A stretch of DNA of 64,000 nt from Pontibacter liquoris (GTDB lineage: Bacteria; Bacteroidota; Bacteroidia; Cytophagales; Hymenobacteraceae), in contig NZ_JALEBG010000002.1 of assembly GCF_022758235.1 (NCBI RefSeq), positions 248,001 through 312,000 on the forward strand, given 5' to 3'. The notes beneath the pieces were generated by a model that worked only from the letters and a program-made list of their open reading frames with translations, was not told the DNA's origin and did no database searches. The position numbers were made by a program, and so were the translations under genes. The stretch's first letter is position 1; each line of letters begins with the position of its first letter. Of this stretch, positions 5,354-18,398 are shown piece after piece.

Positions 5354-5851
5354 ATGATGAAGACGTTATATATCCTGCGCCATGCCAAATCGAGCTGGAA
5401 ATTTGAAGGGCTCAGCGACCAGGACAGACCGTTGAATAAGCGGGGCCGCGAAGATGCGCAGCTCATGGGCCAGGAACTGGCTTCCCGCGGCCTCAAGCCC
5501 GACCTGATCCTGGCCAGCCCTGCCGTAAGAGCGCTTACCACGGCTACCCTGGTAGGCAAAGAGCTGGGCTACCAGCCGGAAGATATTGTACTGGATGAGC
5601 GGGTGTACGCCGCAGGCATCAAAGACCTGATGGAAGTGGTGCAGGAAACGCCCAAAGATGTGCAGTCGCTGCTGCTGGTGGGCCACAACGAGGGCATCTC
5701 CGACTTTGCCAACGAGCTCTCGCCGGAGAACCTGGCCCGGCTGCCCACTGCCGGCATCGTAGCCCTGCAGTTTGATTGCGATAACTGGACGGAAATCAGC
5801 CGCGACAATGCGGACTTTTTATTCTTCGATTTTCCAAAAAACTACAAGTAA
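5354..5851 (+). CDS. SixA-type histidine phosphatase
   Basis: 165 residues, the length of small single-domain histidine phosphatases. Visible are LRHAKSSW (8-15) with the phospho-accepting His10, DRPLNKRG (24-31), the SPAVRA Arg59, Glu83 and VGHNEG (109-114) with His111. The RHAK rather than RHG start is typical of SixA, which removes phosphate from histidine phosphotransfer proteins; many Bacteroidota homologues have no tested substrate. The start is the first of two consecutive ATGs; either is possible. ppk1 follows after 65 bases on the same strand, so a link to phosphate or polyphosphate metabolism is attractive but inferred. Confidence 0.85.
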   Translation: MMKTLYILRHAKSSWKFEGLSDQDRPLNKRGREDAQLMGQELASRGLKPDLILASPAVRALTTATLVGKELGYQPEDIVLDERVYAAGIKDLMEVVQETPKDVQSLLLVGHNEGISDFANELSPENLARLPTAGIVALQFDCDNWTEISRDNADFLFFDFPKNYK

Positions 5852-5916: not shown

Positions 5917-8025
5917 ATGAACGAAGAGCAACTATTACAGGCAAGCCCACAGCAGGAACTCCCTTTTATTAACAGGGAGCTGAGCTGGCTGGCCTTTAAT
6001 TTCAGAGTATTGCAGGAGGCCGAAGACAAGCGCGTGCCGCTGCTGGAGCGCATTAAGTTTCTGGCTATTTTTTCTTCTAACCTCGACGAGTACTTTAAAG
6101 TGCGGGTGGCAACGCTCAAGCGCCTGATCAAGCTGAAAAAGAAGACACGCGAAAAGCTGGAAGAAGATCCTTCAATTACCTTTGACCAAGTGATATGCGA
6201 GGTAAAACGGCAGCAGAACGAGTTTGGCAGGGTGTACCGCGAAAGTATACTGCCCGACCTGCGCCGGGAGAACATCCACATGCTGACGGAGAACGACCTG
6301 AACCCGGCGCAGCAGCAATGGGTGAAGGCCTATTTTGAAGAAACCCTGGCTCCCTTGCTGCTCCCCATTATCCTGGATGCCACCGAAACGCACCTCTTTC
6401 TCAAAGACCAGACGGTATACCTAGGCATTAAAATGGATGATCCGAAAACGGAAGGTGACAAGCCCGAGCGTTTCAGCATGCTGGAAATCCCCACCAAAAA
6501 GCTTGGAGGGCGTTTTGTGAAGCTGCCCACAGAGGGCGAGCAACGCTACGTGATGTTTGTGGACGATGTGATCCGATACTGCCTGCCGCTGTTGTTTCCC
6601 CAATACAGGCACTTTGATGCCCATGCCGTAAAGGTGTCGCGGGATGCGGAACTGGATATTGAAGAGGAAGTATCGGGCGACCTGATGGCCAAGATTCGCA
6701 AAAGCGTTAAGAAGCGCGAAACCGGCTACCCGGCGCGCCTGCTCTACGACCCCACCATGCCCCAGGACCTGCTTGACCGCCTGATGGCTCACACCGGCAT
6801 ATCGGAAGAGGAACTGGTGGAAGGCAGCAAGTACCACAACTTCCGCGATTTTTTTCAGTTCCCGGACTTTAACCTGCCCCGCCTCAAGTATGACCCGCAG
6901 CCCCAGCTGGTGCACCCGTTGCTGGAGAAAGAGCCCAGCATACTGGCCGCCATGCAAAAGCAGGATTACCTGGTTCATTACCCCTACCAGTCGTTCGACT
7001 ACGTGCTGCGCCTCTTTAACGAAGCCGCTACCGACCCCAACGTAACCGCCATCAGTGTTACCCTGTACCGCGTAGCCGACAAATCGGCCATTGCCAAAGC
7101 GCTGGTAAAGGCCGCTAAAAACGGCAAGCTGGTAACGGTTGTGGTAGAGCTGAAAGCGCGTTTCGACGAGGAATCCAACATTTACTGGGCAGGCAAGCTG
7201 CAGAAGGCAGGCGCCAACGTGATCTTTGGCATCGAGGACCTGAAAGTACACTCCAAGCTGGGCCTGATCACGCGCAATGAGAACGGCACCCTAGTAAACT
7301 ATGCATACCTGAGTACGGGCAACTATAACGAGGACACCGCAACCATCTACGCCGACTACGCCCTGTTTACCGCAGATCCACGCCTGACCAGGGATGTGGA
7401 ACAGGTCTTTAACTTTTTCGTGGATCGCCAAACCGACAAAAAAATCGAGCACCTGCTGGTGGCCCCCATCAACATGCGCGAAAAGTTTGTAGGGCTGATT
7501 GACCGCGAGATACGCAATGCCCGCAAAGGGTTGCCGGCAAGTATGATCCTGAAGATGAATGCGCTGCAGGACGAGCGCATGATCCGCAAGCTGTATGAAG
7601 CCAGCCAGTCAGGCGTTAAAATTCAGCTGCTGGTGCGCGGCATCTGCTGCCTGGTGCCGGGTGTGGCGGGGCTGAGCGAGAACATACAGGTGCGCAGCAT
7701 TGTAGACCGTTACCTGGAGCATGCCCGGGTATACATTTTCCACAACAACGGCGAGGAGCAGTATTATGTGGCCTCAGCCGACTGGATGACACGCAACCTG
7801 AACCGGCGCATCGAAGTAGCTTTTCCGCTGTTGCACCCTAACCTGGTAGCGCAGGTACGCACCATCATCGACTTTCAACTGGCCGATGACACCAAAGCCC
7901 GCGATGTATACAACAACTATGTGCAGGAGCCGGCGGCAGCCAGCGTGCGCTCGCAGTACAAGACGTATGAGTACCTCCGCAGCCTGGTGCCCGAAGGGAT
8001 GAATCCGGAACGAAAAGGCAAATAA
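5917..8025 (+). CDS. ppk1: Polyphosphate kinase 1
   Basis: 702 residues, the usual PPK1 length. It makes inorganic polyphosphate from ATP (reversibly) as a membrane-associated oligomer. N domain: PFINRELSWLAFNFRVLQEA; head domain with FLAIFSSNLDEYFKVR; C1/C2 domains of the phospholipase-D fold. The autophosphorylated His445 lies in LKVHSKLGLI and the second essential His602 in LEHARVYIFHN. NLNRRIEVAFPLLHP also matches the family. It follows the phosphatase gene at 65 bases and converges with the DUF6268 gene, leaving only 17 bases between stops. Confidence 0.97.
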   Translation: MNEEQLLQASPQQELPFINRELSWLAFNFRVLQEAEDKRVPLLERIKFLAIFSSNLDEYFKVRVATLKRLIKLKKKTREKLEEDPSITFDQVICEVKRQQNEFGRVYRESILPDLRRENIHMLTENDLNPAQQQWVKAYFEETLAPLLLPIILDATETHLFLKDQTVYLGIKMDDPKTEGDKPERFSMLEIPTKKLGGRFVKLPTEGEQRYVMFVDDVIRYCLPLLFPQYRHFDAHAVKVSRDAELDIEEEVSGDLMAKIRKSVKKRETGYPARLLYDPTMPQDLLDRLMAHTGISEEELVEGSKYHNFRDFFQFPDFNLPRLKYDPQPQLVHPLLEKEPSILAAMQKQDYLVHYPYQSFDYVLRLFNEAATDPNVTAISVTLYRVADKSAIAKALVKAAKNGKLVTVVVELKARFDEESNIYWAGKLQKAGANVIFGIEDLKVHSKLGLITRNENGTLVNYAYLSTGNYNEDTATIYADYALFTADPRLTRDVEQVFNFFVDRQTDKKIEHLLVAPINMREKFVGLIDREIRNARKGLPASMILKMNALQDERMIRKLYEASQSGVKIQLLVRGICCLVPGVAGLSENIQVRSIVDRYLEHARVYIFHNNGEEQYYVASADWMTRNLNRRIEVAFPLLHPNLVAQVRTIIDFQLADDTKARDVYNNYVQEPAAASVRSQYKTYEYLRSLVPEGMNPERKGK

Positions 8026-8042: not shown

Positions 8043-9074
8043 TTACTCGCCGCCGTGCTTTTTCAGGAGCTTGCGCGGGGGCACGGCAAACAGCTCCACC
8101 CCGATATACCCTGTGCCAGCCAGGTCGTTTTTGATCAGCTCGTTCTGAGAGCCGATATCATCGAACACGCGGTTGCGGTAATACTGCCGGAAACCGCCTT
8201 CCACGGCAAACCATAGAAAGTCGTAGATCTCGCGCTCGGCACGCACCAGCCCTTTAAAGTCGGTGCGGCGCAACTCCACATTCCCGAACTCCGATAAAGG
8301 CGGGTTCTTAACACGCAACGTATAGGCCGCGCCCTCGATCTTATAGCCGGCATAGAAAAGTGTTTTTTCATCCATGTTGTAGCGTACGCGGGCGTTGGCC
8401 GGAAAAATGGATTCGACACCCCACTGCTTGTTGAAAGTGCGGTTATACAGGATGCCGGGATAAATGCTCTGTCGCCCGAACGTATAGCCCACTTCCACGC
8501 CAACGCCAATGGCATAGTCGGGAGTTTTCTTCCAGCCATAAGCCAGGTCCACGGTGGTTTTCAGGAAATCAGAAATACCGATATTCTCCTGCCGGTAGTC
8601 GCCGTTTAGCTCGCCTTTGACACGGATCAGGTAAAACCGGCGGTCGTTGAGCGAGTGCAGAAAGGCCAGTTGCAGGCCCAGGCTTTTGAGATGCTTGTCC
8701 TGCAGGTTCTCATAAAGGCTGTAGGAGCTGGGCGTAATGTTGCCAAACTCAAATTCCTCATACTTATACGTAAGCCCCAGGATAAGCTTTGTTTGCGGCT
8801 TGTTGATAACGGGCCCGAAAGCGCGCACATCAAACTTGTTGTTGCGGCGCACATGCCCGCTGCCGTCGCCTACCCGCGGGTCTTCGGACTTCGAGTCGAT
8901 ATCAAACTGCGGCAGCCGCTCATAGCCGATTATGATGCCCCTGCTTTTGCCCATACCCTGCACCGAAGGAGAGGCATACGTTTTCAGAACCTGCGATTCG
9001 GGGTTCTGCGCCTGAGCGCGTGGGGCACCCAGCAGCAGGGCCAGCACCGGCAATAGTAAATACTTGTTTTTCAT
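8043..9074 (-). CDS. DUF6268-type outer-membrane beta-barrel protein
   Basis: 343 residues. The N-terminus MKNKYLLLPVLALLLG..AQAQ is a Sec signal peptide cut after about residue 22. The rest alternates hydrophobic and polar residues in amphipathic strands (TKLILGLTYKYEEFEF, YAIGVGVEVGYTFG, VRYNMDEKTLFYAGYKIEG), as expected for an outer-membrane barrel. I recognise the general look of DUF6268, a Bacteroidota family with no known function. It lies 66 bases downstream of the large phosphoesterase-barrel gene, with a hairpin between, and the two may be cotranscribed. Confidence 0.65.
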   Translation of the reverse strand: MKNKYLLLPVLALLLGAPRAQAQNPESQVLKTYASPSVQGMGKSRGIIIGYERLPQFDIDSKSEDPRVGDGSGHVRRNNKFDVRAFGPVINKPQTKLILGLTYKYEEFEFGNITPSSYSLYENLQDKHLKSLGLQLAFLHSLNDRRFYLIRVKGELNGDYRQENIGISDFLKTTVDLAYGWKKTPDYAIGVGVEVGYTFGRQSIYPGILYNRTFNKQWGVESIFPANARVRYNMDEKTLFYAGYKIEGAAYTLRVKNPPLSEFGNVELRRTDFKGLVRAEREIYDFLWFAVEGGFRQYYRNRVFDDIGSQNELIKNDLAGTGYIGVELFAVPPRKLLKKHGGE

Positions 9075-9140: not shown

Positions 9141-12100
9141 TTAAAACAGGAAGCCTAATTTCAGCATCCATAGCTCATCATCATCGCCCACGGCATACGT
9201 CAGCGACAACACATTGCGTTGCAGTAGCTCTGTCCAGATACCGCCGCCGTAGCCGGAATGGAGGCTACGCAAAAACGGCTGCCCCGGGTCCGTATCGTTG
9301 TATACGCGGCCTACATCATAGAGACCAAGCACCCCGAATTTAGCCGGCGTCAGGAACAGGTTATAGTTGAGCACCGCTACCCGGGCCTCCGCATTTGCAT
9401 AGATAGTCGAGCGGCCGGCCAGACGTGTGCGGCGGTAACCGCGCAGGTTATCGGTGCCGCCCAGCGTGCTGGCCTGGTAAAACCGGAAGTTGCCATAGTT
9501 ATGCGATGCGCCCACCCTGCCGGCCCACGTGAGCTGAAAAGGGAAATTGGGGGTGATGTAAAAGCTGAAATCTGAGCTGATATTGCCGTAGCCCAGGTGC
9601 TGGCCACCTAGCTGCCGGCTATAACTGATGCTGTTATGCCAGCGCATGCCAATACGCGGGTTGGCCTCGCTGCTGCTGCCCAGTACGTTCATGTTCAGGA
9701 AGGCCGCTACCCCCAGGTAGTGCTGCGCGTTAAACGTGCCCGCTTCCGCGTTGTAGGTATCGGTTGGCAGGTTGCCGGCTACTGCTTCATTTACCAGGAA
9801 GTTCGCAGCTTCCGGCGTGGCTACTTTAAAGCGGTCGTAAGTGGGGCCTATCCCTGCTTTAAAGAAAGAAGTAACATCTTTATACAGCATAGCGCTCAAA
9901 CGCTGGCGCTCGTAGCGCACCCGGTAATAAGCCTCGTCCGTACCCGGCTCCTGGCTGGTTTCATTGCCCAGCCCGTAGAAATTACGCTGCATTTGCGGCC
10001 CTTCCACCTTGCCGTCCACAAGTATGCTCCACGGGCCCATCACCTGCCGGAAGTCGCCGTTATAGTGGGCCATAAATGAATTTGTAAAGAAAGTGTAGTT
10101 GCCTTCGAGCAGGTGCTGGGTAGCATAAGGCGTTTTCCGGAATCCTTGGGTGCGGGCCAGCACGCCAGCTCCCAGAATAGCGCCGTCATCTACGTTATAC
10201 CCCAGGTTAAGGCGCGGAACTACAAAAGGAATGCTATAGTTGTCGCGATCATACACGTTCACTTCCTCAAACAAGGTGGTTTCGTCTTTCGTTTCGGAGC
10301 CAAAGTCAAACTTGTTGCCCGTATTGATATCATAAACGACCGTATACTTGCGGGGGCCGCTCACATGCGAATTGTCCACGATCAGGTCTTCGTCCCCGCC
10401 CCCGATGATGCGCACCACAATGCCTTTCTGCACGTTGCCGGTCACTTTAAACTCGTCTTCTCCGGCCAGACCGTAGAGGCGCAGCTCCTTGGTTTCGCTT
10501 GTATAAAAGGTGCGTTTGAAGAGGGTATCGAGCACCTCGCCTTCTTTGGAGAGCTTATACACGGTCAGCTGCGTCTGATCATCGTTTAGCCGGTTCACCA
10601 GAAAACGTTCGTGCTTGTCGCTGCCGGCCACATCCACGGCTTTGGCCAGGTGCTCATAATATTGCTCGGCGGCTTGCGGCAGCTTATCGCGCCGCGATTT
10701 CAGCTTGGCCACCAACTCCGGCCCTGAAATGCCGCGGACACTTTCGGGCAACTGCTGCACGGCACTTTCGATCACGGCATCTGTCAGGCTGGCTTTTATA
10801 TTGTTGGCCAGGCGCAACCAGTCCTGGCGGGTAACTTTAGCAGTAAACGTGCGGTCCAGGGTAAGGGCATTCAGGTTGAGACCCAGCACATCGGGATAAT
10901 CGTAACCGAAGTTCTGCACCTGCCGGGTGCCCCATTTGCGCATAGCCAGCCAGGGCAGAATGCCGTCTGCTTTAAAAAAGGCCTGGTCGCGGTCTACCGG
11001 CACAGGAATGTAAAGGTGCCCTTTGCCAGCTTTCTTGCGGTCTACCCAGCGCCATTGCCCTTCGTGGCGGTTCCAGTCGCCGATAAGCATATCCAGCAGG
11101 CGGGCCCGGACAAACGCCTGCTCATCCACTTCGTTGTCGTTGTCGTCTTTGAGTTCGCTCAACACTTTGTCGGTACCCACCAGGTTAGTGGCGTTGCCAA
11201 GGCTGGCAACATCTTCATGGTTCTCATCGGGGTCTTCCTCCAGCATGGCCAGCATGTTGCCATACTCGTCTTCATACTGCCGTAGATAAGGCGTTTGCGG
11301 GATGTATACCAACTTGGGATTGGTATGAAACACGCCGGCGGCATCAGCCAGGGGCGGCACCATCAGGGCGCCATACGGGTGCTGCGCCGATACCTGGTCT
11401 TCCAGCCGGCTACGAGCCTCTGATTCGAGGAGGAACTCGGGCAATACGACGGTTGGCTCTTTGTTTACGCTCCGGAGTTTAAATTCCCGGGCCTCGGGGT
11501 TGCGCACCTTCAGCGAAGTGGTCTGCTGCCCGCCGCCTTTCTGGTAAGGCCGCAGCCCGCCAAGCTCGTTTTTCATGTCCAGCAGGGGCGCTGTTACCGG
11601 GGTGGTCCACTCCTTGCGGTAGTGTTCTCCCTGGAGCAATTCTTTCAGTCCGCTCACCTCATACTTGCTGTTGGCCGCCAGGGTAATGGTGCTATCGCTG
11701 TAATCGGTATTATCCTGCACCAGCGGCTTTTCCTGCGGTGGCTTTTTGTTGTAAAGCAACGTGCGGTAGGTAATCCGGCCCGTAGCCCCACCGTCTACGG
11801 GTACCCAGTATTCTGTCCATACTTCCCCGTTGTCATAATAGAGCAGTTTGGAAAAGCCCTCTATCCGTTGCGCATATTCCGCATCGCCGCCGGGCTTCAC
11901 AAACTGGTTCTTACAGCCCGATCCGCTGACAATCAAAGGCGTGTTATTATGCTTGAAGTACTCCAGGGCATGCTCGTGGCCTGCGGCGTACGTAATGTTA
12001 TCATACTTGTCGAAGATGTTGAGCAGCCCCTCAATGTATGCCTGGTAACGCGGGTGCGGAATATCTTCCAGAATGCCGCCATACTTGCGGGCAAACGGGT

Positions 12101-12956
12101 AAATGGAGCCAATGATAGGTAGTGGCAGATACATCCACTCGCGGAGCATGGTTAGCGGGAAGAAGTGGTCTTTGAGCGTGAAGAAACCGCCATGTGCTCC
12201 GCGGCTTTTGAGCGGATGGTGCGCTACCACCAGGATATCACTGCCCTGGTTCTTCTCGATAATATCTTCCATCTTCACCAGAAAGTCGGCCTCGGAGGTG
12301 GCGCCGCAACCGCTGTTGTTGCCGTAAGGCCTGTTGAAAGGAAACATCCACCACTCCGAGTCTACCGCGATCAGCACCAGGTTGTCGCTCAGGCGCACTT
12401 CGTAGGGCCCCGGGCACCCGTTGCCGGGAACATAGTAATCGTCGCCCAGCACAATATCTTTCTTGTCGAGGTACTCATTTACGTAATTCTGTTCCCGCAT
12501 AACGGCCTCCAGTCCGCCGCGTCCGCTGTGGTTCCAGTCGTGGTTGCCCGCTATCATGTAGGTTTCGCCGGGGTAGCCTTTCAGAATATTGAGCTGCTCG
12601 TTCATGCGCTCTTCCGACACCTTGCGATCTAAGGCACCTTCTTTGGGCAGGCCATTGTAATAGACATTGTCGCCCAGGTAAATGGTCGCGCTCTGCTCGC
12701 CGGTTTCGTTCATCATGCGCTGCAGCAGCTTGAGGGTGGGCTCCTGCACGCCGTCGGTCCGGGGTTCGCCCACATCGCCAATGAGAAATACCGTGTACAG
12801 CAGCTTGTTGCCGGGGGCGGGTTTTTCCTGCTCCCAGTTGGCTGCCTTGGGGCTATAATAGGGCTTTGTGTTGACGCAGGCACTCAGGAGCAGCGTGAGC
12901 AACAGCTGCCCGAGGAGGCGTATCGGAAGGCACTTAGGGGTATACATTTTCTTCAT
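9141..12956 (-). CDS. Lipoprotein: calcineurin-like phosphoesterase fused to a C-terminal outer-membrane barrel
   Basis: 1271 residues. The lipobox LLLSAC puts Cys27 at the mature N-terminus. Residues about 50-390 are a metallophosphoesterase with every metal motif: GDVG (60-63), GDNVY (95-99), GNHDW (137-141), AHHP (245-248) and GHEH (326-329). A middle part (about 590-830) contains MLIGDWNRHEGQW (623-635) and PVDRDQAF around Asp655. The last 340 residues (LNLGYNVDDGAILGAGV to the terminal LKLGFLF) look like the surface-antigen/Omp85 beta barrel, with LGGTDNLRGYRRTRLAG matching the conserved barrel motif of BamA/TamA relatives. The protein should sit in the outer membrane. Phosphoesterase substrate and facing side are unknown. 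Many lines of Bacteroidota seem to carry such proteins, annotated variously. Confidence 0.82.
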   Translation of the reverse strand: MKKMYTPKCLPIRLLGQLLLTLLLSACVNTKPYYSPKAANWEQEKPAPGNKLLYTVFLIGDVGEPRTDGVQEPTLKLLQRMMNETGEQSATIYLGDNVYYNGLPKEGALDRKVSEERMNEQLNILKGYPGETYMIAGNHDWNHSGRGGLEAVMREQNYVNEYLDKKDIVLGDDYYVPGNGCPGPYEVRLSDNLVLIAVDSEWWMFPFNRPYGNNSGCGATSEADFLVKMEDIIEKNQGSDILVVAHHPLKSRGAHGGFFTLKDHFFPLTMLREWMYLPLPIIGSIYPFARKYGGILEDIPHPRYQAYIEGLLNIFDKYDNITYAAGHEHALEYFKHNNTPLIVSGSGCKNQFVKPGGDAEYAQRIEGFSKLLYYDNGEVWTEYWVPVDGGATGRITYRTLLYNKKPPQEKPLVQDNTDYSDSTITLAANSKYEVSGLKELLQGEHYRKEWTTPVTAPLLDMKNELGGLRPYQKGGGQQTTSLKVRNPEAREFKLRSVNKEPTVVLPEFLLESEARSRLEDQVSAQHPYGALMVPPLADAAGVFHTNPKLVYIPQTPYLRQYEDEYGNMLAMLEEDPDENHEDVASLGNATNLVGTDKVLSELKDDNDNEVDEQAFVRARLLDMLIGDWNRHEGQWRWVDRKKAGKGHLYIPVPVDRDQAFFKADGILPWLAMRKWGTRQVQNFGYDYPDVLGLNLNALTLDRTFTAKVTRQDWLRLANNIKASLTDAVIESAVQQLPESVRGISGPELVAKLKSRRDKLPQAAEQYYEHLAKAVDVAGSDKHERFLVNRLNDDQTQLTVYKLSKEGEVLDTLFKRTFYTSETKELRLYGLAGEDEFKVTGNVQKGIVVRIIGGGDEDLIVDNSHVSGPRKYTVVYDINTGNKFDFGSETKDETTLFEEVNVYDRDNYSIPFVVPRLNLGYNVDDGAILGAGVLARTQGFRKTPYATQHLLEGNYTFFTNSFMAHYNGDFRQVMGPWSILVDGKVEGPQMQRNFYGLGNETSQEPGTDEAYYRVRYERQRLSAMLYKDVTSFFKAGIGPTYDRFKVATPEAANFLVNEAVAGNLPTDTYNAEAGTFNAQHYLGVAAFLNMNVLGSSSEANPRIGMRWHNSISYSRQLGGQHLGYGNISSDFSFYITPNFPFQLTWAGRVGASHNYGNFRFYQASTLGGTDNLRGYRRTRLAGRSTIYANAEARVAVLNYNLFLTPAKFGVLGLYDVGRVYNDTDPGQPFLRSLHSGYGGGIWTELLQRNVLSLTYAVGDDDELWMLKLGFLF

Positions 12957-13283: not shown

Positions 13284-14480
13284 ATGGAAGAAGCAACAAT
13301 TATAAAGGCCGCCGGTGAGTATGTTCTTCAGCTCTTTAAGGAACAACTCTCGAAAAAGCTGGTTTACCACAATTACAGACACACCTTTGAAACGGTAACC
13401 GAAGCACAGGAACTTGGCCGCATGAGCCACCTGGCGCCCGATGAACTGCAGGACCTGGTGCTGGCCGCCTGGTTTCATGATACCGGTTATACAGTTACAT
13501 ATGATGGGCACGAAGAAGAGAGCAAGCGCCTGGCCACCGACTGGCTGCAGGAGCGCCAGTACCCACAGGAGCGCATCAACCGCATTCTTGGTTGCATAGA
13601 AGCAACGCAGGCCGGCGTGCAGCCGCAGGGGCAGTTGCAAACGCTTCTGGTAGATGCCGACCTGTCTAACATGGGCAAAGCCTCTTTTGCGGCCACTGCC
13701 GAGTTACTGCGGGTAGAGTGGGAAATCTACCGGAACAAGTTCTTTACAGAAAGAGAATGGGCTAAGTTTCAGCTGAACTTCCTGCTGTCCACCTCCTTTC
13801 TTTCAACCGAGGCACAACACAAATACGCCGCGCAACTGGGCCTGAACATACAGGAGCAGCGCAAATTGCTGAGCACAGAGGAGAAGCATAAAAAGAAAGA
13901 AGAGAAAAAACACCGCAAAACACTGGCGCAGCCCAAGCGGGGCATCGAGACCATGTTCCGCAACACCTATAAAACGCACCTGGACCTCAGCGGCATTGCC
14001 GATAACAAGGCAAACATGATGATCAGCTTGAATGCCATCATCCTTTCCGTCATCATCACTTACCTGAGCGCCAAGACCTCTGTGATAGGCACCGATTACA
14101 CGCATCACCGCTCCCTAATTATCCCTATCGGCACTTTGCTGCTCACCACGCTGGGCTCAGTGATCTTTGCCATTATTTCGGCCCAGCCCGAGATCACCAG
14201 CCTGAAGCTCCGGAAAAACAGCTCCCGGGTAAACACCCGCCAGGTGAACCTGCTTTTTTTCGGCAACTTTACCAAGCTGCCCTTAGAAGATTTCCGCAAA
14301 GGAATGCATGAGATCATGCGCGACAAAAAATCGCTGTATAACAACATGATCACCGATATTTATTACCTGGGTGAGGTACTGAACCGCAAGTATCGGGTGT
14401 TGCGCATTTCATACACGATCTTTATGGTGGGGCTGGTGCTCACCGTCATCGCCTTTGGTATAGCCGTCGCTTTTTATTAA
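13284..14480 (+). CDS. HD phosphohydrolase domain fused to a Pycsar-effector-like (PycTM) membrane module
   Basis: 398 residues. Residues about 10-190 are an HD domain: YHNYRH (28-33), FHDTG (64-68) and LVDADLSN (122-129) supply the H..HD..D metal ligands of HD hydrolases. A lysine/glutamate-rich helix (200-215) leads to a C-terminal part beginning NTYKTHLDLSGIADNKANMMISLNAIILSVI (227-257, in two halves: the DNKANMM core at 240-246). That core plus following helices (about 248-263, 278-300, 373-397) is what I recognise from PycTM, the membrane effector domain of Pycsar anti-phage systems. In Pycsar the effector is switched on by cCMP or cUMP. No cyclase gene is nearby, so its signal and role are open. 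The HD part could hydrolyse or sense a nucleotide. Confidence 0.78.
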   Translation: MEEATIIKAAGEYVLQLFKEQLSKKLVYHNYRHTFETVTEAQELGRMSHLAPDELQDLVLAAWFHDTGYTVTYDGHEEESKRLATDWLQERQYPQERINRILGCIEATQAGVQPQGQLQTLLVDADLSNMGKASFAATAELLRVEWEIYRNKFFTEREWAKFQLNFLLSTSFLSTEAQHKYAAQLGLNIQEQRKLLSTEEKHKKKEEKKHRKTLAQPKRGIETMFRNTYKTHLDLSGIADNKANMMISLNAIILSVIITYLSAKTSVIGTDYTHHRSLIIPIGTLLLTTLGSVIFAIISAQPEITSLKLRKNSSRVNTRQVNLLFFGNFTKLPLEDFRKGMHEIMRDKKSLYNNMITDIYYLGEVLNRKYRVLRISYTIFMVGLVLTVIAFGIAVAFY

Positions 14481-15989: not shown

Positions 15990-17102
15990 TTGACTGATAT
16001 TGCAATTGTAGGTGGTGGCCTGGCGGGCCTGGTAAGTGCGCTGGGTCTGGCAAAAGCCGGGCTCCGGGTGGTGCTGGTCGAGAAGAAAGTATACCCTTTT
16101 CACCGGGTATGCGGCGAGTATGTTTCCAACGAGGTGCTGCCTTACCTGCGCGCGCTTGGTGCTGACCCGGCCTTGCTGCAGCCGGCGGCCATTAACCGGT
16201 TTATGCTTACCTCTCCGAAAGGCAAGGCGCTGTTTGCCCCCTTGGACCTGGGCGGGTTTGGAATAAGCCGTTATGCGCTGGACCACTACCTCTACCAAGT
16301 GGCGCAGCAGCAGGAAGTGCAATTTATTTTGCAACAGACCGTACAGGATGTACGCTTTACAGGCGATGCCTTTACCCTGCAACTCTCCGGGGGCGAAACG
16401 CTGGCTGCCAAGGTGGTGCTGGGCGCTTTCGGCAAACGCGCCAACCTCGACCGGCAGCTGAACCGCCCTTTCTTTCAGGCCCGCTCTCCCTACCTGGGCA
16501 TTAAATACCACCTTCGCTACGATGCACCCCGCGACCTGATCGCGCTCCACAATTTTAAGGAGGGCTATGCCGGCATTTCGGCGATAGAAGATGACCGGTA
16601 CTGCTTTTGTTACCTGACCACGCGCCGCAACCTGAAAGCCCACAGAAGTATAGCGGCTATGGAACAGGCCGTGCTGTGCCGCAACCCGCACCTGCGCCGC
16701 ATATTCGAAGAGGCTGATTTCCTCTACGACCAACCCGAGGTGATCAACGAAATATCGTTTGCGCCTAAAACCTGCATCGAGAACCACATGCTGCTTTGCG
16801 GCGATGCGGCAGGTATGATCACGCCGCTGTGTGGCAACGGCATGGCCATGGCTATCCACTCCGGCAAAATTGCTACCGACCAGGTGCTGCGCTATTTCCG
16901 GGAAGGGCTGCCCCGGCCACAACTGGAAGAAAATTACCGCCGTGCCTGGCAGCAGCAGTTTGCCGGGCGCCTGCAGGTGGGCCGCGCGGTGCAGCAGCTT
17001 TTCGGCAGCCCCATTCTTTCGGAAGTGGCGGTAGGAGCGCTGCAATGGCTTCCGCCCCTGGTGCGCCTGGTGATGCGGCAAACACACGGGCAGCCTTTCT
17101 GA
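15990..17102 (+). CDS. FAD-dependent oxidoreductase of the geranylgeranyl reductase/hydroxylase type
   Basis: 370 residues starting at a TTG (the frame begins MTDIAIVGGGLAG and no ATG lies upstream close by). The FAD-binding GGGLAG (8-13), VEKK after the second strand, the substrate-side CGEYVS motif near residue 41 and CGDAAGMITPLCGNGMAMA place it among geranylgeranyl-reductase-like and aromatic-hydroxylase-like flavoproteins. It is followed by a type III polyketide synthase and a methyltransferase. Streptomyces srsABC has the same three activities for methylated phenolic lipids, where the flavoprotein hydroxylates the ring. That role is an inference here. Other products in the family are possible. 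Confidence 0.8.
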   Translation: MTDIAIVGGGLAGLVSALGLAKAGLRVVLVEKKVYPFHRVCGEYVSNEVLPYLRALGADPALLQPAAINRFMLTSPKGKALFAPLDLGGFGISRYALDHYLYQVAQQQEVQFILQQTVQDVRFTGDAFTLQLSGGETLAAKVVLGAFGKRANLDRQLNRPFFQARSPYLGIKYHLRYDAPRDLIALHNFKEGYAGISAIEDDRYCFCYLTTRRNLKAHRSIAAMEQAVLCRNPHLRRIFEEADFLYDQPEVINEISFAPKTCIENHMLLCGDAAGMITPLCGNGMAMAIHSGKIATDQVLRYFREGLPRPQLEENYRRAWQQQFAGRLQVGRAVQQLFGSPILSEVAVGALQWLPPLVRLVMRQTHGQPF

Positions 17103-17270: not shown

Positions 17271-18398
17271 ATGAAGAGCTACTTATGCGCTATCGGCACC
17301 GCGAACCCACCCCACAAAATACCGCAGATGCAAATTGCGGCATTTATGGCGGCCGCGCTACAGTTTGACGAGCAGGACACCCGCAAGCTGAAAGCCTTGT
17401 ACCGGGTGTCGGGTATTGGCCAGCGCTATACGGTGCTCGAGGATTATGCGCGCCAGAACGGCAGCTTCACTTTTTTCCCCAATACCCCTTCGTTAGAGCC
17501 TTTTCCGGGGGTGCAGCAACGCATGAACCTCTACAAGCAGCACGCGGTGGACCTCTCGGAGGAAGCAGTACGCAGCTGCCTGTCTAAAATTTCGGGCACC
17601 CACCTGGCAGACCTCACGCACCTGATCACGGTGAGCTGCACCGGCATGTATGCCCCAGGCCTGGATATTGAACTGGTGGAACGGCTGGGCCTGCCAACCA
17701 CCGTGCAGCGCACCGCCGTGAATTTTATGGGCTGCTATGCCGCCTTTAACGCCATTAAGCTGGCCGATGCCATCTGCAAAGCCACTCCCACCGCCCGGGT
17801 AATGCTGGTGTGCACAGAGATCTGCACCATCCACTTCCAAAAACACGCCGAGCAGGACCACCTGGTGTCGAATGCGCTTTTTGGCGACGGCGCGGCCGCG
17901 GTGCTGATGCAAGGCGAGCCCTGCCGGGAAGTGAGCCTGGAGCTGCAATCGTTCCACTGCGACCTGGCACCTGCCGGTAAGCGCGAGATGGCCTGGCACA
18001 TTGGCGATACAGGTTTTGAGATGACGCTTTCCTCCTACGTACCTGACCTGATCAAGAATGGCATCCGGGAACTGACCGACAGGTTGCTGCAGGGCCTGAA
18101 GACCACCATGGCCGAGATCAAACTTTTTGCCATACACCCCGGCGGGCGCCGCATACTCGAGGTGATCGAACAGGAACTGGGCCTGTCGCGCAACGACAAC
18201 CGCTTTGCCTACCAGGTGCTGCGCGATTTCGGGAATATGTCGTCGGCCACGGTGCTGTTTGTGCTGCAGGCGCTGATGGACGAACTCACCCATAAAGATA
18301 AGAACGAACCGGTGCTGAGCTTTGCCTTCGGGCCGGGGCTTACGCTGGAATCCATGTTACTTAAAGTGCACTATGCAGAGGCTGCTCCAACGCTCTGA
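17271..18398 (+). CDS. Type III polyketide synthase (chalcone synthase-like)
   Basis: 375 residues, normal for the family. The full catalytic triad is visible: Cys123 in TVSCTGMYAPG, His289 in FAIHPGGRR and Asn322 in FGNMSSATVLFVL. FGDGAAAVL (204-212) and the ending FAFGPGLTLESMLL are also typical. These homodimeric cytosolic enzymes extend an acyl-CoA starter with malonyl-CoA and cyclise the chain to alkylresorcinols, pyrones or similar. Starter choice cannot be read from sequence. The gene overlaps the downstream methyltransferase, indicating a tightly coupled unit. A 168-base gap separates it from the flavoprotein gene. Confidence 0.93.
   Translation: MKSYLCAIGTANPPHKIPQMQIAAFMAAALQFDEQDTRKLKALYRVSGIGQRYTVLEDYARQNGSFTFFPNTPSLEPFPGVQQRMNLYKQHAVDLSEEAVRSCLSKISGTHLADLTHLITVSCTGMYAPGLDIELVERLGLPTTVQRTAVNFMGCYAAFNAIKLADAICKATPTARVMLVCTEICTIHFQKHAEQDHLVSNALFGDGAAAVLMQGEPCREVSLELQSFHCDLAPAGKREMAWHIGDTGFEMTLSSYVPDLIKNGIRELTDRLLQGLKTTMAEIKLFAIHPGGRRILEVIEQELGLSRNDNRFAYQVLRDFGNMSSATVLFVLQALMDELTHKDKNEPVLSFAFGPGLTLESMLLKVHYAEAAPTL

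Follow-up and report, generated by a model that had tools for sequence, protein, structure and literature searches.

The 64,000-nucleotide stretch of Pontibacter liquoris DNA analysed here (the window; contig NZ_JALEBG010000002.1, positions 248,001 to 312,000) encodes on its minus strand a 1271-residue protein that joins a metallophosphoesterase, a middle domain with a predicted protein-kinase-like fold, a beta-rich linker and an Omp85 barrel (open reading frame, ORF, 9141–12956 with an ATG start; Table 1). Our preferred reading, held with moderate confidence, is that this chain belongs to a Bacteroidota-wide envelope family that adds phosphate to an envelope substrate and removes it again together with conserved partners, the window copy itself being probably kinase-impaired. 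An original prediction made from the letters alone had recognized a calcineurin-type active site and a BamA/TamA-like barrel in a single chain, which agrees with the ORF, the PF00149 match and the barrel model reported below; the two kinase-reminiscent stretches that it placed in the middle part, GDWNRHEGQW and PVDRDQAF, are both found in the sequence.

Predicted kinase fold of the middle domain

The AlphaFold2 model of the middle domain, calculated from an alignment of 80 sequences, has a mean predicted local distance difference test score (pLDDT) of 93.1 and a predicted template modelling score (pTM) of 0.92, and it shows a bilobal, protein-kinase-like fold. Foldseek placed PI4KII-alpha first (E 2e-5), followed by HipA and HipT. 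The VIA-align Z scores were 14.9 for PI4K-II, 14.3 for CotH, 13.7 for CtkA, 11.3 for HipA, 11.2 for VPS34 and 10.4 for Fam20C, and all 50 of the 50 PDB entries among the matches listed belong to the kinase-like fold group (PI4K, CotH, CtkA, HipA, PI3K, Fam20C), mostly spanning model residues ~41–357, i.e. protein residues ~455–771. The elements likewise follow one another as in a kinase: a Gly-rich GGGxQTxSL stretch between beta1 and beta2 (474–482), R495 and K499 at beta3 and D520 in the next helix are followed by E573 in the pre-hinge strand, a helix, GDWDRH, two strands and DRD. The family thus presents Gly-rich loop, Lys (K499), catalytic Asp (D629) and metal-binding Asp (D655) in sequence, the window copy carrying Asn629. 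The model supports the kinase-like reading of the original prediction, and the linker or plug-like fold that had been named as the contrary outcome did not emerge.

Profile comparisons point in the same direction. When compared by hhalign with an alignment of CotH (E 6e-4), GDWDRH falls opposite GxWDxY and PxDRDxAF opposite PYDYDNTF; fold and catalytic motifs are both CotH-like. Against HipA (E 0.03) GDWDRHxxQ pairs with NxDDHxxN. The matches of the middle-domain profile in the PDB include the DRH loop of CtkA, located exactly at LLGNFDRHNGNW (E 0.5). Near-misses in Pfam among the 80 relatives concern Fam20C (PF06702, one relative, E 0.0012) and CotH (PF08757, 2 relatives, best E 0.025), and PADLOC returned a weak PDC-M03A match over the motif (E 0.02). 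The weak similarities to CotH, HipA, CtkA and Fam20C are insufficient singly and become convincing in combination with the predicted fold. No family in Pfam, NCBIfam or PADLOC matched the middle domain above cut-off: the window protein has no match to CotH (PF08757), Fam20C (PF06702) or HipA (PF07804), and a direct phmmer search of the domain against the PDB yielded chance matches only. By sequence, this domain forms a family of its own that is absent from the libraries searched. Matches of phmmer to APH(2'')-Id were rejected as kinase evidence, because they are located in residues 857–918 and hence in the linker.

The established families each share a part of this picture. CotH aligns in its GxWDx.. 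catalytic loop and its DxDxxF metal motif, whereas fusion to an Omp85 barrel is absent and the alignment is confined to the C-lobe. HipA, HipT and CtkA have the catalytic loop [D/N]-x-D-x-H-x-x-[N/Q] and comparable folds (Z 10–14, the CtkA comparison resting on the search tool's own alignment), but these proteins are soluble and have no barrel. Fam20C, which acts in the secretory compartment, and Fam20A resemble the fold as well, but they are animal proteins without a barrel. PI4K-II lipid kinases are the best structural match, although the identity in the aligned part is only 10–12% and their catalytic motif is a different one. This top rank and the membrane-proximal position of the domain would suit a narrower form of our reading, a kinase of lipids or glycans whose target would be an outer-membrane lipid such as lipopolysaccharide or an inositol lipid; however, the protein kinase CotH lies within 1 Z unit of PI4K-II, so that the substrate class cannot be read from the fold, and we regard this specification as rather doubtful. 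Kinase-like folds are also known to transfer AMP, as SelO does, or glutamate. Such a transfer of a non-phosphate group onto envelope proteins could be read from the departures of the motif from canonical kinases (Gln634, D-R-D), but the nearest folds are phosphotransferases and the residue pattern aligns with CotH and HipA, which makes it very improbable.

Invariant residues and the asparagine at position 629

Conservation was assessed in 53 non-redundant full-length homologues (<85% mutual identity, the most distant sharing 27% with the window protein) that were gathered by whole-protein or whole-domain search without use of the motif; loci L105–L184, which had been found by a motif pattern, were excluded from this evidence. 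K499, R495, D520, D622, D627, D629, R630, H631, Q634, D655 and D657 are invariant in all 53, and in a wider set, to which barrel-only and stand-alone members also belong, D629 still reaches 89%. By alignment, this residue is the predicted counterpart of the catalytic Asp in kinases of the HipA/CtkA/CotH type. The original prediction had singled out Asp627, Asn629, His631 and Asp655: three of these positions are invariant, whereas Asn629, taken as part of the motif, is Asp in every other full-length homologue, including the 78%-identical L006. Codon 629 of the window copy reads AAC, and this Asn at the predicted catalytic position is the reason why the copy is probably kinase-impaired while the family looks active. 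From the sequence, kinase activity has likely been lost or strongly reduced specifically in this strain; alternatively, codon 629 may contain a sequencing error. The suggestion that the protein possibly transfers phosphate accordingly suits the family, whose activity is predicted from the fold and the invariant residues, better than the copy in which it was first noticed.

Several observations weigh against an active kinase. Besides the missing Asp629 of the window copy, the motif has been lost from several barrel-linked members without phosphoesterase (L092, L095, L096, L099), which makes a structural role of the fold possible in some members. Gln634 stands in place of the metal-binding Asn of most kinases. 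Neither the window protein nor the two scanned paralogues match a Pfam kinase family, weak matches being restricted to the 80 relatives, and hhalign assigns low probabilities (28% and 2%), owing to the small size of the alignments. Hardest to account for is the phosphate donor, since the periplasm is thought to hold little ATP. A silent pseudokinase that binds a nucleotide or a phosphorylated ligand and regulates the phosphoesterase or the barrel would account for Asn629 and the degenerate motifs, and a tandem pair of stand-alone genes in Pontibacter (GDWSRHEDNW and GDWDRH), similar to Fam20A and Fam20C, fits this explanation too. Against it, K499, D627, D629, H631, Q634 and D655 are conserved at least as strictly as the metal ligands of the phosphoesterase, and in L080, L085 and L086 the phosphoesterase is broken and the complete set of kinase residues retained. 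We consider a pseudokinase unlikely as an explanation for the family and retain the active kinase as our preferred reading.

Phosphoesterase, barrel and distribution in Bacteroidota

Purple acid phosphatases are characterized by the signature GDxG, GDxxY, GNHD/E, VxxH and GHxH. All five motifs are present in the window protein (GDxG 60–63, GDxxY 95–99, GNHD 137–140, VxxH 243–246, GHxH 326–329), the Pfam match to PF00149 (residues 55–257) exceeds the curated cut-off, and the metal ligands are conserved in 50 to 53 of the 53 homologues, depending on the position. The domain is thus a calcineurin-like metallophosphoesterase of the purple-acid-phosphatase type with a complete active site, as had been proposed. 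Purple acid phosphatases (ACP5 type) are also its sole, albeit weak, phmmer matches in the PDB; they differ in being soluble and without fusion to a kinase or barrel. A virulence-linked metallophosphoesterase of Riemerella, listed as a type IX secretion effector in a review, was considered and probably does not belong to this family.

The model of residues 404–1271 (pLDDT 93.7, pTM 0.90) ends in a 16-stranded barrel that places the protein in the Omp85 superfamily. It superimposes on TamA with Z 27.3 and a root-mean-square deviation of 3.1 over 295 residues, and BamA was matched as well; NF047779 matches the C-terminus with E 4e-24, under the curated cut-off of that model. The L6 motif (V/I/L)RG(F/Y) is present as LRGY (1171–1174), its RG being found in 53 of 53 homologues. 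POTRA domains, which are usual although not universal in Omp85 proteins, are absent from the models, the pre-barrel part consisting of the kinase fold and the beta linker. This linker (772–908) contains GLxGxDxF...GGxGxD stretches and is hardly covered by the structure matches listed, which is not evidence of a new fold. Stand-alone kinase cores of ~430 residues lack it (L084, L087, L104), thus indicating a domain boundary near residue 771. The lipobox LSAC with Cys27 predicts that the product is a lipoprotein; a lipobox was not seen in every homologue. The N-terminal part of Omp85 proteins is periplasmic. Given this topology and the precedent of PlpD, a patatin-Omp85 protein whose enzyme domain is fused to the barrel and held in the periplasm (PMC11116518), we infer that the kinase-fold and phosphoesterase domains sit in the periplasm at the inner face of the outer membrane; PlpD differs in having a phospholipase, one POTRA and no kinase fold.

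The combination of PF00149 with an Omp85 barrel has a precedent in the ‘Metallo’ subfamily of Heinz and Lithgow 2014, in which PF00149 is likewise N-terminal to the barrel (PMC4104836); going by the description, these are very probably the same proteins. That study named the domain a metalloprotease, called the distribution genus-level, suggested a role in quality control and does not contain the word kinase; it also describes a noNterm Omp85 group that is likewise without POTRA (PMC4104836). An Omp85 assembly factor or secretion porin with cargo or chaperone-like N-terminal domains, in line with this proteolysis proposal, would be consistent with the TamA/BamA-type barrel and the suggested quality control. 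However, PF00149 denotes a phosphoesterase and not a protease, POTRA domains are lacking, both enzymatic sites are conserved, and kinase and phosphoesterase genes also stand alone without any barrel, so that we give this explanation very little weight. A literature search, with most subscription papers outside its coverage, found no description of a kinase fold in these proteins. Of the novelty originally claimed, the phosphoesterase-barrel fusion was already on record (PMC4104836), while the kinase-fold domain, its spread, the stand-alone forms and the neighbourhood appear to be new.

The middle domain was detected in 113 of 296 Bacteroidota genomes by a single-sequence search and in 147 of 395, about a third, by a profile search. 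Relatives of the 1271-residue protein occur in all 60 of the 60 genomes sampled from the organism's own family, and the hosts include Pontibacter, Hymenobacter, Rufibacter, Larkinella, Roseivirga, Pedobacter, Labilibaculum and Balneolaceae. Among the fetched loci, phosphoesterase+middle+linker+barrel is the most frequent architecture (139), followed by middle+linker+barrel (27) and middle+linker (23); the middle core alone (3), the phosphoesterase alone (4) and a few truncated cases complete the list. The host genome contains three stand-alone copies of the middle domain (~550–600 aa, 39–44% identical) and one stand-alone phosphoesterase. No member of the CotH family was found there, and its HipA homologue (G000:C1:1052091-1052732, L220) has an in-frame TGA and is probably a pseudogene. 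Stand-alone kinase-fold and phosphoesterase genes adjoin each other in L068 and L069, and in L235 a separate phosphoesterase gene adjoins two kinase-barrel genes, which suggests that the two domains associate even when unfused. Tandem stand-alone kinase-fold genes, some with a lipobox, occur in Pontibacter (G000:C3:183701-186764; L002, L003) and in L140, L141, L144 and L157; the second gene reads GDWSRHExNW, with the catalytic Asp replaced, and the first reads GDWDRH in L002/L003 and L157. Such a pair looks like the known pairing of the kinase Fam20C with the pseudokinase Fam20A.

Gene neighbourhood and proposed role

The neighbourhood was compared in 44 loci across the phylum, fetched regardless of the motif (20 with and 24 without phosphoesterase), many of which are related and hence not independent. 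The HD-PycTM gene is found near 32 of them (19/20 with phosphoesterase, 13/24 without), an SdiA-regulated beta-propeller gene near 25 (15/20, 10/24) and ppk1 near 11 (5/20, 6/24); sixA accompanies 2/20 and 8/24, respectively. Ten neighbour proteins were confirmed by Pfam. Orientation and side of the neighbours vary between loci, which argues for selection over inherited order, and the presence of just two PycTM genes in the host genome puts a chance adjacency within 10 kb at ~1% by our own estimate. PycTM is the Pycsar effector domain, but HD-PycTM is apparently a housekeeping neighbour here and not a defence gene.

In L268, L265 and L245 the genes for HD-PycTM, PPK1, the beta-propeller and the kinase-barrel protein are consecutive on one strand and operon-like, the beta-propeller adjoining an Omp85 barrel being reminiscent of BamB with BamA. 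At the phosphoesterase-less loci L227 (6664–9669), L228 (9589–12552) and L243, a conserved gene set of a phosphate-selective-type porin, a CotH kinase and a PAP2 phosphatase adjoins the kinase-barrel genes, again a pairing of kinase and phosphatase. Elsewhere in the window, an FAD-dependent oxidoreductase and a type III polyketide synthase of the chalcone-synthase family (15990–17102 and 17271–18398) form a small biosynthetic cluster.

Table 1. Features of the 1271-residue protein and of neighbouring genes (window positions)
Feature	Position	Strand	Basis
Whole ORF: lipoprotein signal, metallophosphoesterase, kinase-fold domain, beta linker, Omp85 barrel	9141..12956	-	
Signal peptide and lipobox LSAC, Cys27 (residues 1-27)	12876..12956	-	sequence
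Metallophosphoesterase domain (residues ~48-395), motifs GDxG/GDxxY/GNHD/VxxH/GHxH	11772..12815	-	
Predicted kinase-fold domain (residues ~418-771)	10644..11705	-	model, structure matches, profile alignments
Gly-rich loop, GGGQQTTSL-like (residues 474-482), between beta1 and beta2	11511..11537	-	
Lys499, invariant, directly past beta3; candidate nucleotide-phosphate-binding Lys	11460..11462	-	
Predicted catalytic loop GDWNRHEGQWRW (residues 626-637), family consensus GDWDRHxxQWxW	11046..11081	-	
Codon 629, AAC (Asn); Asp (predicted catalytic base) in all other full-length homologues	11070..11072	-	
D655-R-D657, putative metal-binding (DFG-equivalent) motif	10986..10994	-	
Beta-rich linker joining the kinase-fold domain to the barrel (residues 772-908)	10233..10643	-	model
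16-stranded Omp85 (TamA/BamA-type) barrel (residues 911-1271), without POTRA	9144..10226	-	model
Omp85 L6 motif LRGY (residues 1171-1174)	9435..9446	-	sequence
DUF6268 outer-membrane protein gene, 66 bases downstream, same strand, probably co-transcribed	8043..9074	-	
HD phosphohydrolase and PycTM membrane protein, divergent neighbour with phylum-wide conservation	13284..14480	+	
ppk1, polyphosphate kinase, recurrent neighbour	5917..8025	+	
sixA-like phosphohistidine phosphatase, recurrent neighbour	5354..5851	+	

In the mechanism that we propose, a kinase-like domain of the PI4K-II/CotH/CtkA/HipA/Fam20 group would be tethered via the beta-rich linker to the Omp85 barrel, with the purple-acid-phosphatase-type phosphoesterase added N-terminally in most collected members and both enzymatic domains facing the periplasm at the outer membrane. 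The kinase-fold domain would phosphorylate a protein, glycan or lipid of the envelope, from which the phosphate would be taken off again, and the family would work with HD-PycTM, the SdiA-regulated beta-propeller and often PPK1. The recurrence of ppk1 makes polyphosphate as donor a testable idea, PPK1 itself being cytoplasmic. An active kinase and an antagonistic phosphatase in one outer-membrane chain, phosphorylating an envelope substrate reversibly throughout the phylum, perhaps from a non-ATP donor such as polyphosphate, and forming a conserved module together with PPK1, HD-PycTM and a lipoprotein of the beta-propeller type, is a more specific version that we put forward tentatively.

In Gram-negative bacteria, few cases of phosphorylation beyond the inner membrane are known, and we are aware of no kinase anchored in the outer membrane. 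The family described here supplies a candidate for such an outer-membrane kinase, predicted in about a third of the sampled Bacteroidota and distinguished by invariant residues and by partner genes that are conserved. A published label is corrected as well, since the Omp85 proteins named ‘metalloprotease’ are phosphoesterase and kinase-fold proteins, and the family suggests that phosphate may be both added, by a predicted kinase activity, and removed at the outer membrane of Bacteroidota.

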